Shown here one piece after another: positions 4,102-36,676 of a stretch of 36,736 bases of DNA. Below the pieces are notes generated by a model. That model was not told the DNA's origin, ran no database searches, and saw only the letters and a program-made list of their open reading frames with translations. The translations under genes and the position numbers were made by a program. Numbering within the stretch: position 1 is the first letter of the stretch; every line of letters starts with the position of its first letter. The stretch is from assembly GCA_015068025.1 (NCBI GenBank), contig SVLH01000018.1, positions 1-36,736 of the forward strand, in the 5' to 3' direction. Source of the DNA: Oscillospiraceae bacterium. GTDB taxonomy: Bacteria; Bacillota; Clostridia; Oscillospirales; Oscillospiraceae.

Positions 4102-4599
4102 TCACTTGGAAAGGGAAGCGCAGTCGGCAGGAACGCCGGAGAGCATCTCCAATCCGTGGGAAATGGCGGGCAGAACGGCTTCCAGATTTTCCCGTGCTGC
4201 CTTGGGCGAGCCGGGCAGGTTGATGATCAGCGTGCCCTTGCGGATGCCTGCCTGCGCCCGGGACAGCATCGCCCTGTTCGTCACCTGCATGGAGGCATAG
4301 CGCATGGCTTCGGGGATGCCGGGGGTCAGGCGGTCGCAGACGGCGATGGTGGCCTCCGGCGTTACATCTCTGGGGGCAAAGCCGGTGCCGCCGGTGGTTA
4401 CCAGCAGCTGCACGTCCGTTGCATCTGCAATGCGGCACAGGGCGGCTTCGATCTGCGGTTGTTCGTCCGGCACGATGGCGGTGCAGGCCACCTCGTACCC
4501 GGCCTGTTTCAGAATTTCTGCTACCAGCGGGCCGCCGGCGTCCGGGCGTTCACCCCGGAAACTACGGTCGCTTACGGTCAAAACAGCGGCTCGATACAT
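4102..4599 (-). CDS. mogA: Molybdopterin adenylyltransferase-like protein (MogA/MoaB family)
   Basis: The protein belongs to the MogA/MoaB family, which adenylates molybdopterin before molybdenum insertion. At 165 residues it has the family's size and motifs: N-terminal AAVLTVSDRSFRGERPDAGG, the pterin-binding TTGGTGFAPRDVTPEAT segment, and LIINLPGSPKAARENLEA near the C-terminus. It is the last gene of the modABC-mogA operon: its ATG at 4599 follows the modC stop by 12 bases, with GAGG before the start. Its placement behind the molybdate transporter supports a role in molybdenum cofactor synthesis. MogA and MoaB cannot be told apart with certainty from sequence alone. Confidence 0.9.
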   Translation of the reverse strand: MYRAAVLTVSDRSFRGERPDAGGPLVAEILKQAGYEVACTAIVPDEQPQIEAALCRIADATDVQLLVTTGGTGFAPRDVTPEATIAVCDRLTPGIPEAMRYASMQVTNRAMLSRAQAGIRKGTLIINLPGSPKAARENLEAVLPAISHGLEMLSGVPADCASLSK

Positions 4600-33721: not shown

Positions 33722-34105
33722 TCAAAGAATGTTTTTCAGAGAAAACCGTTCCATTTCCGCCAGAAGCTGCAGCTGCGTGCGGAGGTCGGCCAGCTCGGCG
33801 CGGAACTCGCTGTCCTCCTGCACGGCGGCAAAAGCCATGGCCCGTTGGTACATGGATTCCGCGTCATCCACGACATCATGTTCTGTGACAATGTGCAGGT
33901 AGACCTGCCGGGAAGTCCAGTCCCGGTAGGAATCTTGCAGTGTTTCTGCGGCGGACTCCCAGTCCTCCGCCCAGGCAAAGACTTCCGCCTTGTGCAGTTG
34001 TGTCTGCCAGCGGTCGGTTTCCGCGCCCATATAGCGGCCGTTTTGGAGGGCAAAAGCGAACATGGCGAGCAAAACCGCCAGCGGAGGGAGAAGCGTCTTG
34101 CTCAT
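33722..34105 (-). CDS. DUF4363 family protein
   Basis: The 127-residue protein has an N-terminal membrane segment (about 5-20, PPLAVLLAMFAFALQN) and an extracytoplasmic helical part with TDRWQTQLHKAEVFAWAEDW and LRTQLQLLAEMERFSLKNIL, as in DUF4363 proteins. Function is unknown. The ATG at 34105 overlaps the stop of the DUF421 gene by four bases; DUF421 and DUF4363 genes are often paired in Clostridia, so they probably work together at the membrane. The longer frame upstream lies inside the DUF421 gene. Confidence 0.8.
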   Translation of the reverse strand: MSKTLLPPLAVLLAMFAFALQNGRYMGAETDRWQTQLHKAEVFAWAEDWESAAETLQDSYRDWTSRQVYLHIVTEHDVVDDAESMYQRAMAFAAVQEDSEFRAELADLRTQLQLLAEMERFSLKNIL

Positions 34106-34785
34106 GGCTGTTCCTCCTTTTTGATGCACAGGATGTTCCCTTGTCCGTCCAACGTGAGCAGAAACGCCTCGCGGGGAGAGGAGAGCTTTTGCTTGGCGAG
34201 GGTCTTTTGCAGCCATGCCATGTCCTTGCCACAGTCGGTCAGGTTTTGTTTTAAAACTCTGCCGTCATTGACCAGTACGGTAGGCAGAACGGCGGTATCC
34301 TGGATCTCCAGATTCAGCGCTTCGGCGGTGGGAGGCTGACAGCGGCTCCACGGCAGAACGGACAGATGGCCGGAGTTTTCCAGAATGGCATATTTTACGT
34401 CTTGAATGCTGAAATATCCCTGTTCACGCAGCTCCTCCAGCAGTTCGTCCAGTGTATAGCGGTTTTTCCGCATAGCGGATTGCTGAAGGACGCCGTTACG
34501 GATCAGCACAGAAGGTGTCCCGCATACCAGCGCACGGAACCGCAGACTGGAAAGGGAGATCTGACTGAGCAGCATCGACAGCGCCAGCAGCGTCAGGATG
34601 GGGATGACCCCCGCCAGCAGCGGAGTCCCGAAATTCTGCATAGGGACGGTGGCGAGGTCGGAGAGCATCAGAGTAAGCACCAGTTCGCTGGGTTCCAGTT
34701 CGCCGATCTGGCGTTTTCCCATCAGGCGAAGCCCCACCATAATGAGAAAATAAAGAATCACGGTGCGCACAAAAGCAGTCATCAT
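34102..34785 (-). CDS. DUF421 (YetF-like) membrane protein
   Basis: The 227-residue protein has three hydrophobic segments in the first ~75 residues and a C-terminal cytoplasmic YetF-type domain with the family's VLIRNGVLQQSAMRKNRYTL, LREQGYFSIQDVKYAILE and LPTVLVNDGRVLKQNL segments. In Bacillus, YetF relatives are spore-associated in some cases, but the activity is unknown. The start is the ATG at 34785 (a second ATG follows directly), with GGGAGGG upstream. It is coupled to the DUF4363 gene. Confidence 0.88.
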   Translation of the reverse strand: MMTAFVRTVILYFLIMVGLRLMGKRQIGELEPSELVLTLMLSDLATVPMQNFGTPLLAGVIPILTLLALSMLLSQISLSSLRFRALVCGTPSVLIRNGVLQQSAMRKNRYTLDELLEELREQGYFSIQDVKYAILENSGHLSVLPWSRCQPPTAEALNLEIQDTAVLPTVLVNDGRVLKQNLTDCGKDMAWLQKTLAKQKLSSPREAFLLTLDGQGNILCIKKEEQP

Positions 34786-34898
34786 CGTCAGTCCCTCCCA
34801 TTGCAGCAGTATTTGCCGCATTTGGCGGTTTATTCATGAACGGGCGATTGCGCAGTCTGCTTTTTTCTGCGATGAAAGTGCGGCGGAGAAACCGTAGC

Positions 34899-34932
34899 AA
34901 AAGGAGGGACGGCTCACATGAGCCGCCCCTCC
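34899..34932 (-). terminator. Terminator of the SASP gene remnant
   Basis: A 14-bp stem with one mismatch (34903-34916 with 34919-34932, GGAGGG.CGGCTCA) lies 18 bases after the SASP stop codon and runs into TTTT on the minus strand. The terminator is still intact although the gene is broken. Confidence 0.8.
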
Positions 34933-34950
34933 TCCGGTTCCAGCGGGAAG

Positions 34951-35067
34951 TTACAGGTTCTTCTCGTAGGACTCGATCATCTTCTTGACCATCTGGCCGC
35001 CGACAGAGCCGGCCTCGCGGGAGGTCAGGTGACCGTTGTAGCCTTCCTTCAGGTTGACGCCGACTTC
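34951..35067 (-). pseudogene. Alpha/beta-type small acid-soluble spore protein, 3' part only
   Basis: Alpha/beta SASPs coat and protect spore DNA. The last 38 codons are clear: EVGVNLKEGYNGHLTSREAG, then SVGGQMVKKM and IESYEKNL with a TAA stop at 34951-34953. A full protein has about 60-70 residues. Reading further upstream, homology ends at the Glu codon 35065-35067, and after seven unrelated codons an in-frame TAA occurs at 35089-35091. The lost part is the N-terminal third, with the break at or next to the GPR protease site that family members carry just before E-x-GV. The serine recombinase gene begins its 3' end 80 bases away, so the break is likely an integration junction. Confidence 0.85.
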
Positions 35068-35099
35068 CCTTGATGTTCCTTCTCCATCTTACGATTTTG

Positions 35100-35122
35100 A
35101 AACCCTTGCGCCGCAAGGGTTT
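35100..35122. repeat. 11-bp inverted repeat next to the integration junction
   Basis: AAACCCTTGCG (35100-35110) and CGCAAGGGTTT (35112-35122) are exact complements around one base. It lies between the recombinase stop (35147) and the SASP remnant and lacks a T-run on the minus strand, so it could be part of an attachment site or of the element's end. Confidence 0.6.
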
Positions 35123-35146
35123 GCGGGAACGAAATTTTCTAACAAC

Positions 35147-36676
35147 TCAGGCTGGCGTATCATTTGCCTCGTTCCCGGACATCGCTGGAAGCTCCCGAAC
35201 AGGCTCCTCAGCCACCTCTCCGATGAACTTGTAGACGATGCGGATGCTCTGCCGATAGGGCTGATTCCGGTGTGTTGCCTTGACCGTTCCTTCGGGATAT
35301 TTCTTGGGACCGATCTCAATACGCTCCACAAAGGTCAGCAGGGTCTCACGATCCAACTCCTGAATTTGCGTGTACTCCCGGGCCAGAGAAAAGAAGTTGG
35401 CATAGCTGGACTCAATCTCCTCCGCCGACCTTGAAATGGTCAGCGAATCCAATGCGGCCTGCAGACCGGCGGACTCCTTTTCCAAATCCGCCACCATGCG
35501 CCGCAGCCGGTCATCGTCCAGATCGCCCGCTGCATTGTCGGTGTAGAGTTTGGTGACGATCTTGTCGATAGTGCCGATCCGAGCTTCGATCTTCTCCCGC
35601 TTCTGCCGCAGCACCTTCGGGTTTTCGTTGGCGCCTGCCCGCCGCAAAGCCTCTTTGACCAGAGCTTCCACCTGCTTATCTGTCAGCACCAACAGACTGT
35701 TCAATTCCTGCCGCACGATCTCCAATAAGTCGGCGTACCGCACCCGGACGCCGGTGCAGGGATCGGCGATATCCTGCCGCTGATGGGTGCAGGAAAGATA
35801 CCAGTATTTCTCCCGCTCCCCCTTGTAGACTGTCCCGCAGGAACACAGGGAATAGCCGCACTTGGAGCAGACAGCGATGCCGGAGAAGATGCTCTTGCGC
35901 ACATGGTCGTAGGCCCGGTAATCCCGAGAGCCACGTCCAAGATTGGCCTGTGCCCGCCCGTAAAGAGCGTTGGACACCAACGGCGGATGGGTATTTTCCG
36001 TCACCGCCCAATCCTCCCGGGGAACCGGGACTTTTTTCTTGGACTTGACGCTGACCTTCTTACTCTTTCCCAGAAGGGTATGACCCAGATAGACCGGGTT
36101 TTTCAAAATGCGCTTGACCGTCGTATAGTTCCACAGATCTGATGCCCGGGCCGCTCCTTCCTCGCTGAACTCATCCCGGTACAGTACCCGATACTTCAAG
36201 GGCGGAATAACGCCGTCCTCGTTGAGGTCCAGAGCGATCTTTCGGGAAGAATCTCCCTTGGCCGCCTGCTCAAAAATGCGCAGCACCACGGGAGCTGTCA
36301 TCTCATCAGGAGCCAGTCGGTGCTTGTCCTGGGTGTCCTTCCGGTAGCCGTAGGGAGGGCAGGCACAATACTGGCCATTCTCCCGCTTGCTGCGCAGCAC
36401 ATCCTTGACCTTGCGTGAGCCGTCCCGCAGGTAGACCTCGTTCATGGCGAAGAGGAAGGGGGCCATGATGTTCTCCCGCTCGGTGTCGAAGTTGTCCGAG
36501 ATGGCAATATAGTGGATGCCGTGCTCTGGGAAGAACTGCTCCGCGTAGTAGCTGGCCTCCCGCATATCACGGCCCAAACGAGACAGGTCTTCTTGTGTCA
36601 AGTAGGAACAAAAAAATATAAGGATTTTTTGCAAAGAGTCCACAGTTTGTTCAAGAACTGCGGACTCTTTACTCAT
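35147..36676 (-). pseudogene. Large serine recombinase lacking its catalytic N-terminus
   Basis: The frame encodes the middle and C-terminal parts of a large serine recombinase (site-specific integrase of mobile elements). From about residue 30 homology is good: DLSRLGRDM, FFPEHGIHYIAISDNFDT, APFLFAMNEVYLRDGSRKV, PPYGYRKD, a recombinase domain, a zinc ribbon (CSKCGYSLCSCG, with YLSCTH further on), and a coiled coil (about 355-425). In complete enzymes some 60-90 residues with the catalytic serine precede DLSRLGRD; here they are absent. The first 27 codons of the open frame come from a terminator hairpin (36610-36682) and have no relation to the family. The piece is thus cut at about 36590. 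Its 3' end is next to the SASP junction. Confidence 0.8.

Follow-up and report, generated by a model that had tools for sequence, protein, structure and literature searches.

In Oscillospirales, a family of elements that bear a large serine recombinase (LSR) splits the gene for an alpha/beta spore DNA-protection protein (SASP) at a GA dinucleotide and probably restores it on excision. Comparison of sequences across genomes shows the specificity of insertion, the structure of the attachment sites, the recurrence of the junction and the loss of the only SASP copy found. We infer that excision restores SASP often enough for selection to act on the two halves. An initial annotation of this DNA had left restoration by excision open; the selection data favour it.

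A split SASP gene at the end of the window

The window is the stretch analysed here, the entire 36,736-base contig C21 of a 1.54-Mb genome assembled in 39 contigs and estimated to be 71% complete. Near its end lies the 3' half of an alpha/beta SASP gene (34951..35067, minus strand), which forms the chromosomal side of attR. Translation gives 38 codons, EVGVNLKEGYNGHLTSREAGSVGGQMVKKMIESYEKNL, followed by TAA at 34951-34953, and positions 20-59 of PF00269 match window 34954-35073 on the minus strand (E 2.4e-18 in a genome search, 3.7e-19 in a peptide search). SASP codons cease at dinucleotide 35066-35067, GA on the minus strand. From the attL and attR rows and the intact genes, this dinucleotide is the likely crossover, comprising bases 1 and 2 of a Glu codon. 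Upstream of the 3' half in the SASP sense come the 25-base element-side arm of attR, GTAAGATGGAGAAGGAACATCAAGG (35068..35092, minus strand), which by comparison with relatives mirrors their attL arm, then a hairpin (35100..35122, minus strand), then a same-direction LSR from 35147.

This layout bears out the junction coordinates of the initial annotation, which had SASP homology lost at about 35067 and the recombinase stop 80 bases away. Its 38 C-terminal codons and stop also hold, while the terminator it described past the SASP stop, a terminator-like hairpin at about 34905-34936 (minus strand), is visible by eye only and absent from the list of a simple scan. The 11-bp inverted repeat that it noted is present between the recombinase stop and the junction (35100-35110 / 35112-35122), but we rejected this repeat as attachment core: it lies outside the GA junction and forms a hairpin past the end of the recombinase gene, whereas the GA at 35066-35067 is the likely core.

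The chromosomal neighbour of the SASP 3' half is an ORF at 34102..34821 (minus strand, from the ORF list), and its DUF421 family name is that of the initial annotation. Among the fetched loci, DUF421 adjoins a C-half only in the window and in G021, which is likewise split. An intact SASP gene beside DUF421, which the annotation had proposed to look for in related genomes, did not turn up within the ~1.5-kb flanks of the intact loci. More broadly, what lies upstream of SASP (L004-L033 and the split loci of the genus) is common to few genomes and falls mostly into single clusters; downstream, one neighbour is common to 21 of the flanks compared.

The recombinase ORF (35147-36676, minus strand) contains the Pfam domains Recombinase, Zn_ribbon and DUF4368 and the second part of Resolvase. 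Domains, DNA similarity and tree position identify 35147..36591 (minus strand) as the C-terminal ~480 residues of a DUF4368-type, TnpX-like LSR. TnpX-like recombinases combine Resolvase, Recombinase, Zn ribbon and DUF4368, and the window copy has this set without the first Resolvase part. The contig stops at 36736, so that first part, the LSR N-terminus and the rest of the element fall outside the window. At the DNA level, resemblance to the fetched relatives breaks off at about 36591-36597; the contig end (36592..36736) matches none of them: the last ~140 bases match only the window itself among the fetched sequences. This segment is unrelated to the expected LSR N-terminus and carries a AAAGAGTCC...GGACTCTTT hairpin; it may be a chimera, strain variation or a further insertion.

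The missing 5' half appears to lie elsewhere in the same genome. The sole other PF00269 match there covers positions 1-21 at C37:4-66 (minus strand), at the very end of its contig and beside glmM. As far as the assembly reaches, this is the SASP 5' fragment that the initial annotation had suggested searching for at the far end of the element. The fragment terminates in GCCGCCGAC. The crossover codon is GAG or GAA in 37 of 38 genus copies (CAG in L059), and the final C of the C37 N-half therefore looks like the opening base of an attL arm. Two intact SASP genes (L008, L015) likewise have glmM as their upstream neighbour, as does the N-half of G028. We infer that C37 and C21 flank one element whose intervening part is unassembled; the assembly lacks attL past one base, the element body and the LSR N-terminus.

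Attachment sites, recurrence and cargo

Alignment of 50 attR and 32 attL rows, in which L104 and L191 represent the same junction, defines the two attachment sites. The consensus is tTaagaTGgag.agG.ACAcCAAGG-GA-GGT.GGCGTc for attR and ATGGAgGC.GC..cc-GA-..TtG.TGT..Ct...cCATcTTaA for attL, with the two element arms mirroring each other around GA. GA occupies the same codon in 32/32 attL rows and in 48/50 attR rows (CA in L078 and L094), and 37/38 rows of intact genes have GAG or GAA there. We take this to be the second of the acidic codons in the stretch that GPR recognises. The initial annotation had already proposed, from the window alone, that an element used an alpha/beta SASP gene for attachment, close to or at the codons of the GPR site; the recurrence in one LSR clade, with GA at one codon, supports that proposal. 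The element interrupts the coding region of a sporulation gene, at the GA of a Glu codon, and encodes a serine recombinase at one end.

Joining the halves in silico regenerates the gene. All 19 genomes in which a script found half pairs have GA on both sides, and the joined SASP has no lost or doubled codon and no stop, with the script itself fixing the frame; its filter passed over a 20th genome, G083, and the halves of G089 are inverted. In the latter (G089:C59:39673-46627; L191, L104) about 6.8 kb separates the inverted halves and the LSR adjoins the N-half. This arrangement suggests a later inversion, and plain excision would not join such halves. In G005 (L045, ~4130-4225) two tandem attR-like arms precede the SASP C-half, as if the end of an earlier element had been left behind.

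Split SASP genes recur, and because the same junction is found in dozens of genomes, the one in the window is not due to chance. SASP was found in 167 of 197 genomes in an order-wide scan, among the matches listed. The sample of the window's genus comprised 61 genomes, 50 of them with SASP: 34 are full-length, 5 have a changed C-terminus only and 11 have halves only (both halves in five, the C-half in three, the N-half in three). A full-length SASP was found in none of these 11 split genomes, in assemblies that are often incomplete; G028 is ambiguous, since its contig stops at the junction and the gene may be cut by the contig end. The genus of Agathobaculum massiliense (n=25) has 13 full-length genes, one changed C-terminus, 10 with halves and one genome without SASP. 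Halves without a full-length SASP occur in 40/45 genomes reached via LSR loci, a set selected mostly for having a C-half (9/54 loci, mostly without one, were omitted).

Recombinases beside these halves group in one clade. Six LSR queries against the genome collection returned 74 loci, 48 of which have SASP C-terminal codons at most 700 bp downstream; in two of the 48 (L125, L133) an LSR fragment lies ahead of a joined SASP gene. After six loci shorter than 450 aa were dropped, the tree held 69 sequences, 68 loci plus the window. One clade of 62 (support 100/99) has a SASP half adjoining 58 of its LSRs, 47 by the C-half, window included, and 11 by the N-half in reverse orientation. For the other four, the L081 contig ends 288 bases past the LSR, and L066, L112 and L121 are located elsewhere. 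The initial annotation had named a truncated gene without any recombinase in relatives as the pattern that would speak against an element; with 58/62 clade LSRs beside a SASP half, and recombinase presence checked for part of the halves, that pattern did not emerge as the rule.

Tree positions suggest that the elements have moved. The six LSRs known from the window's genus (L063, L064, L065, L076, L089, L123) are scattered in the tree, and the closest neighbours of the window's LSR are not among them but are L067, L117 and L071; we read this pattern as a sign that the elements have passed between hosts repeatedly. Pseudoflavonifractor capillosus An827 and Oscillibacter valericigenes An411 have almost identical LSRs. 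Near-identical LSRs in two genera (L085, L123) mark recent elements and are uninformative on restoration. Very similar LSRs adjoin the C-half in one pair (L102/L116) and the N-half in another (L111/L114), so the element can occupy either orientation. At L066 (Flavonifractor sp. An306), a clade LSR, the arm and GA are followed by unrelated DNA in a genome with a full-length SASP, possibly a secondary attB.

Element size and cargo vary widely. Half-to-half distances on one contig are 4.0 (G091), 9.3, 12.7, 16.1, 16.3, 19.7 (A. massiliense, on a 3.2-Mb contig), 23.1, 23.2, 23.5, 75.8 and 120 kb (O. valericigenes An411). The An411 element (G046) encodes a TraG/VirB4-type ATPase, a T4SS coupling protein and a C39-type peptidase, and its conjugation genes make it ICE-like. 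It also carries a 1865-aa ORF (L038:9012-14609) with Imm68, Imm33, SUFU, DUF4261, DUF7832 and DUF4253, which looks like a poly-immunity protein. Inspection of the ORF lists of nine shorter elements by eye recognised no conjugation genes. The G091 element has an LSR and little else, apart from one protein whose weak resemblance to HipA stays under the cut-off; a sugar ABC transporter and galactose genes are found in four Agathobaculum species (from ORF lists, with Pfam for one species); and the A. massiliense element has genes that resemble, by eye, those of type I restriction. In 20/40 loci the stop of a small ORF lies exactly 36 bases ahead of the LSR, with similar ORFs near several others. 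Two examples searched gave no Pfam match, and the conserved ORF is by its position a candidate accessory factor. Reading the elements as prophages was rejected: viral contigs gave no close LSR relative (one locus, 30% identity), and two attP patterns were unmatched there.

A second insertion site affects the end of the same gene. Seven genomes of the window's genus, together with the C-halves found in G005 and G025, have a SASP that is normal to KKM or similar, after which a conserved tail, xPVRTASxxRADRTAxGH..., replaces IESYEKSL. Another LSR ends, in frame, with the missing SASP codons ('...RTGHTFKKMIESYEKSL'). Nine distinct LSRs with the site-2 motif end in SASP codons; six of them were fetched by searching for those codons, so the independent cases are only L071, L084 and L133. 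The two site-2 ends lie 14-39 kb apart on one contig in G052, G048, G007 and G005. On integration near the SASP 3' end, SASP and recombinase thus swap their C-terminal codons, and the site-2 LSR would carry one C-terminus when free and another when integrated. The site-2 loci are L055-L058, L060-L062, L138, L140-L143 and L146 (in G048, G052, G051, G007, G054, G058, G055, G005 and G025). Both SASP sites are occupied in several genomes.

Selection on the halves and competing explanations

The halves were compared in four Agathobaculum species (G083, G085, G086, G090), all with the same galactose-operon cargo between them. Across four pairs compared, pS is 0.25-0.50 for flanks, 0.13-0.58 for cargo and 0.29-0.61 for the LSR. 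Flank, cargo and LSR divergence are alike within each pair, which suggests that the element was already present in the Agathobaculum ancestor. The 59 SASP codons (17 in the N-half, 42 in the C-half) differ by 0-1 amino acids in all six pairs. In two independent pairs, 10/78 synonymous and 1/270 nonsynonymous sites differ (Fisher p 1.8e-6), while neutral simulation at d 0.35 produced a stop in 76% of runs, and the median run changed 31 amino acids. Halves this well preserved suggest that the gene is rejoined when needed.

Other features of the halves weigh on both sides. Counting against restoration, at least one near-invariant position deviates in 23/50 C-halves, mostly through conservative changes (R to K, D to H) or site 2, and L103 is the sole C-half among the 50 that looks decayed. 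Separate translation of the C-half was considered and rejected: an in-frame ATG, GTG or TTG after the upstream stop is absent in 41/50, the window's included. Ahead of SASP stands a promoter block, nGCATATTCccnnnntTTCGAGtCAAACTATG (consensus of 40 loci, split ones included), presumably SigG-like; it precedes 7/8 N-halves of the window's genus, and the eighth (G000) has a variant. A promoter common to SASP and LSR was also sought, and no such block was found near the LSR in six Agathobaculum elements and eight genus loci; this too counts against restoration, but is a weak negative given a loose genus matrix whose own members score down to -16.

We propose a mobile element family of Oscillospirales in which one member has conjugation genes and others are islands down to 4 kb. 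The attB of its TnpX-like DUF4368 LSR is the GPR-site Glu codon of the host alpha/beta SASP, single-copy in most such genomes. On integration at GA, the 5' half retains its promoter and gains a short tail, and the 3' half stands after an in-frame stop. The recombinase, perhaps aided by the small upstream ORF, may then remove the element precisely, either when cells sporulate or in a fraction of the population, which would restore SASP much as excision of skin does for sigK. Since the forespore is where SASP acts, the element would have to survive as a circle and insert again once the spore has germinated, or be regained; forespore excision risks loss of the element, which counts against restoration. 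A bolder version, which we put forward tentatively and hold to be less than an even bet, is that many gut spore-formers have their single alpha/beta SASP gene split and rejoined by a programmed, reversible recombination, with the element leaving in the forespore lineage, staying in the spore as a circle and reinserting on outgrowth.

The main rival, which strikes us as rather unlikely, holds that these are plain mobile elements with a conserved gene as attB. SASP would be broken in carriers, most cells of each species would be intact as the element comes and goes, and the preserved halves would owe their state to selection on the intact cells. Species with intact and with split genes are indeed mixed within a genus, and near-identical LSRs across genera indicate recent transfer. 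The excised form was also not seen: an attP pattern searched in 49 genomes matched 32 places, all attR, and viral contigs contained no attP. Synonymous divergence of the SASP halves in the four Agathobaculum species (2-8/39 sites) falls below that of flanks and cargo, which fits such turnover and could reflect codon bias, more recent insertion or intact alleles taking the place of the halves. G120, a relative with an intact gene, groups among the split species with low support (0.245), and at that support we do not claim a nested loss of the element. Against the rival, however, four related species are all split by the same cargo co-diverging with its flanks, so that carriage looks old, and their LSRs have remained under constraint (pN/pS 0.09-0.16 in the four pairs).

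Permanent, tolerated knock-out is improbable. Carriers would sporulate without alpha/beta SASP, or not at all, and the halves would be pseudogene pieces. Bacillus subtilis mutants without major SASP still form spores, albeit sensitive ones, and one C-half, that of L103, looks decayed. Yet purifying selection acts on the 59 codons of the halves in four species, and gpr, the SASP protease gene, is kept in 10/11 split genomes of the window's genus, the exception being G035 (71% complete). An assembly artefact of a metagenome bin, although the window stops inside the LSR with its last ~140 bases unmatched and the 5' half sits at a contig end, is highly improbable for the window and rejected for the family, as the same junctions occur in records not labelled MAG (An411, An827, Flintibacter muris DSM 110149, Agathobaculum massiliense, D16-76) and also where both halves share one contig.

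Restoration by excision remains the reading we prefer, and it carries consequences. Programmed rearrangement in sporulation would extend beyond a doomed cell, and the element would need to last in the spore lineage or find its way back there. To our knowledge, reversible excision here would be the first case of an intervening element in a forespore gene and would break the mother-cell-only rule. If SASP is not restored, a considerable part of some gut genera, 11/50 SASP-bearing genomes in one sample and 10/24 in another, would form no spores or form them devoid of alpha/beta SASP, with implications for how spores survive and spread. In both cases, a DUF4368 clade that has almost a single target, a 2-bp core and ~25-bp arms is a useful integrase set.

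Relation to known intervening elements

We found no description of an element inside a SASP gene in the full-text journal literature searched, which took in few subscription titles and no preprints. The passages drawn on name sigK, spsM, spoVFB, spoVR, gerE and yabG as known intervened genes. Like the SASP element, skin (in sigK) and SPbeta (in spsM) are elements with a serine recombinase that reside in a sporulation gene, as the relevant part of PMC4191935 describes. Their precise excision restores the reading frame, while joining of SASP is known in silico. According to the same passages, skin and SPbeta excise in the mother cell only and the spore retains the element, whereas a SASP gene must be whole in the forespore. 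Intervening elements described so far, the class of skin, gin, yin and vfbin, leave the chromosome of the mother cell only; SASP departs from this as a forespore gene, alpha/beta SASP being a SigG forespore product in the section of PMC8270828 on B. subtilis sspC.

Two other intervening elements offer closer parallels. The gin element in gerE of Bacillus cereus ATCC10987 is non-phage, has serine recombinases and a restriction system, and splits a very small sporulation gene, as here (PMC5595907, in the portion describing gin). Rejoining restores the gerE ORF, with excision shown in vivo and in vitro, whereas the SASP element is a candidate for excision. That account gives gin three recombinases and a mother-cell target, in contrast to one DUF4368 LSR at the junction, a forespore gene and many host genera for the SASP element. 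The yin element likewise splits a sporulation gene, yabG, and its integrated and circular forms coexist in culture (PMC10747680, in the part on yin). It is described there as prophage-like and from one strain, whereas SASP elements are found in many genera and have no close viral relatives.

The recombinase itself belongs with the TnpX / Tn4451-type LSRs, sharing Resolvase, Recombinase, Zn ribbon and DUF4368, and TnpX (2mhc) is the nearest solved catalytic domain by sequence. DUF4368 has been linked to multi-targeting LSRs in the relevant section of PMC10083194, whereas the SASP clade is almost single-target. Site 2 resembles the integration-dependent repressor of mycobacteriophage BPs, in which attP lies within a gene and integration alters the C-terminus (PMC4557955). 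In BPs the phage repressor is truncated; at site 2, by contrast, recombinase and SASP swap codons in frame.
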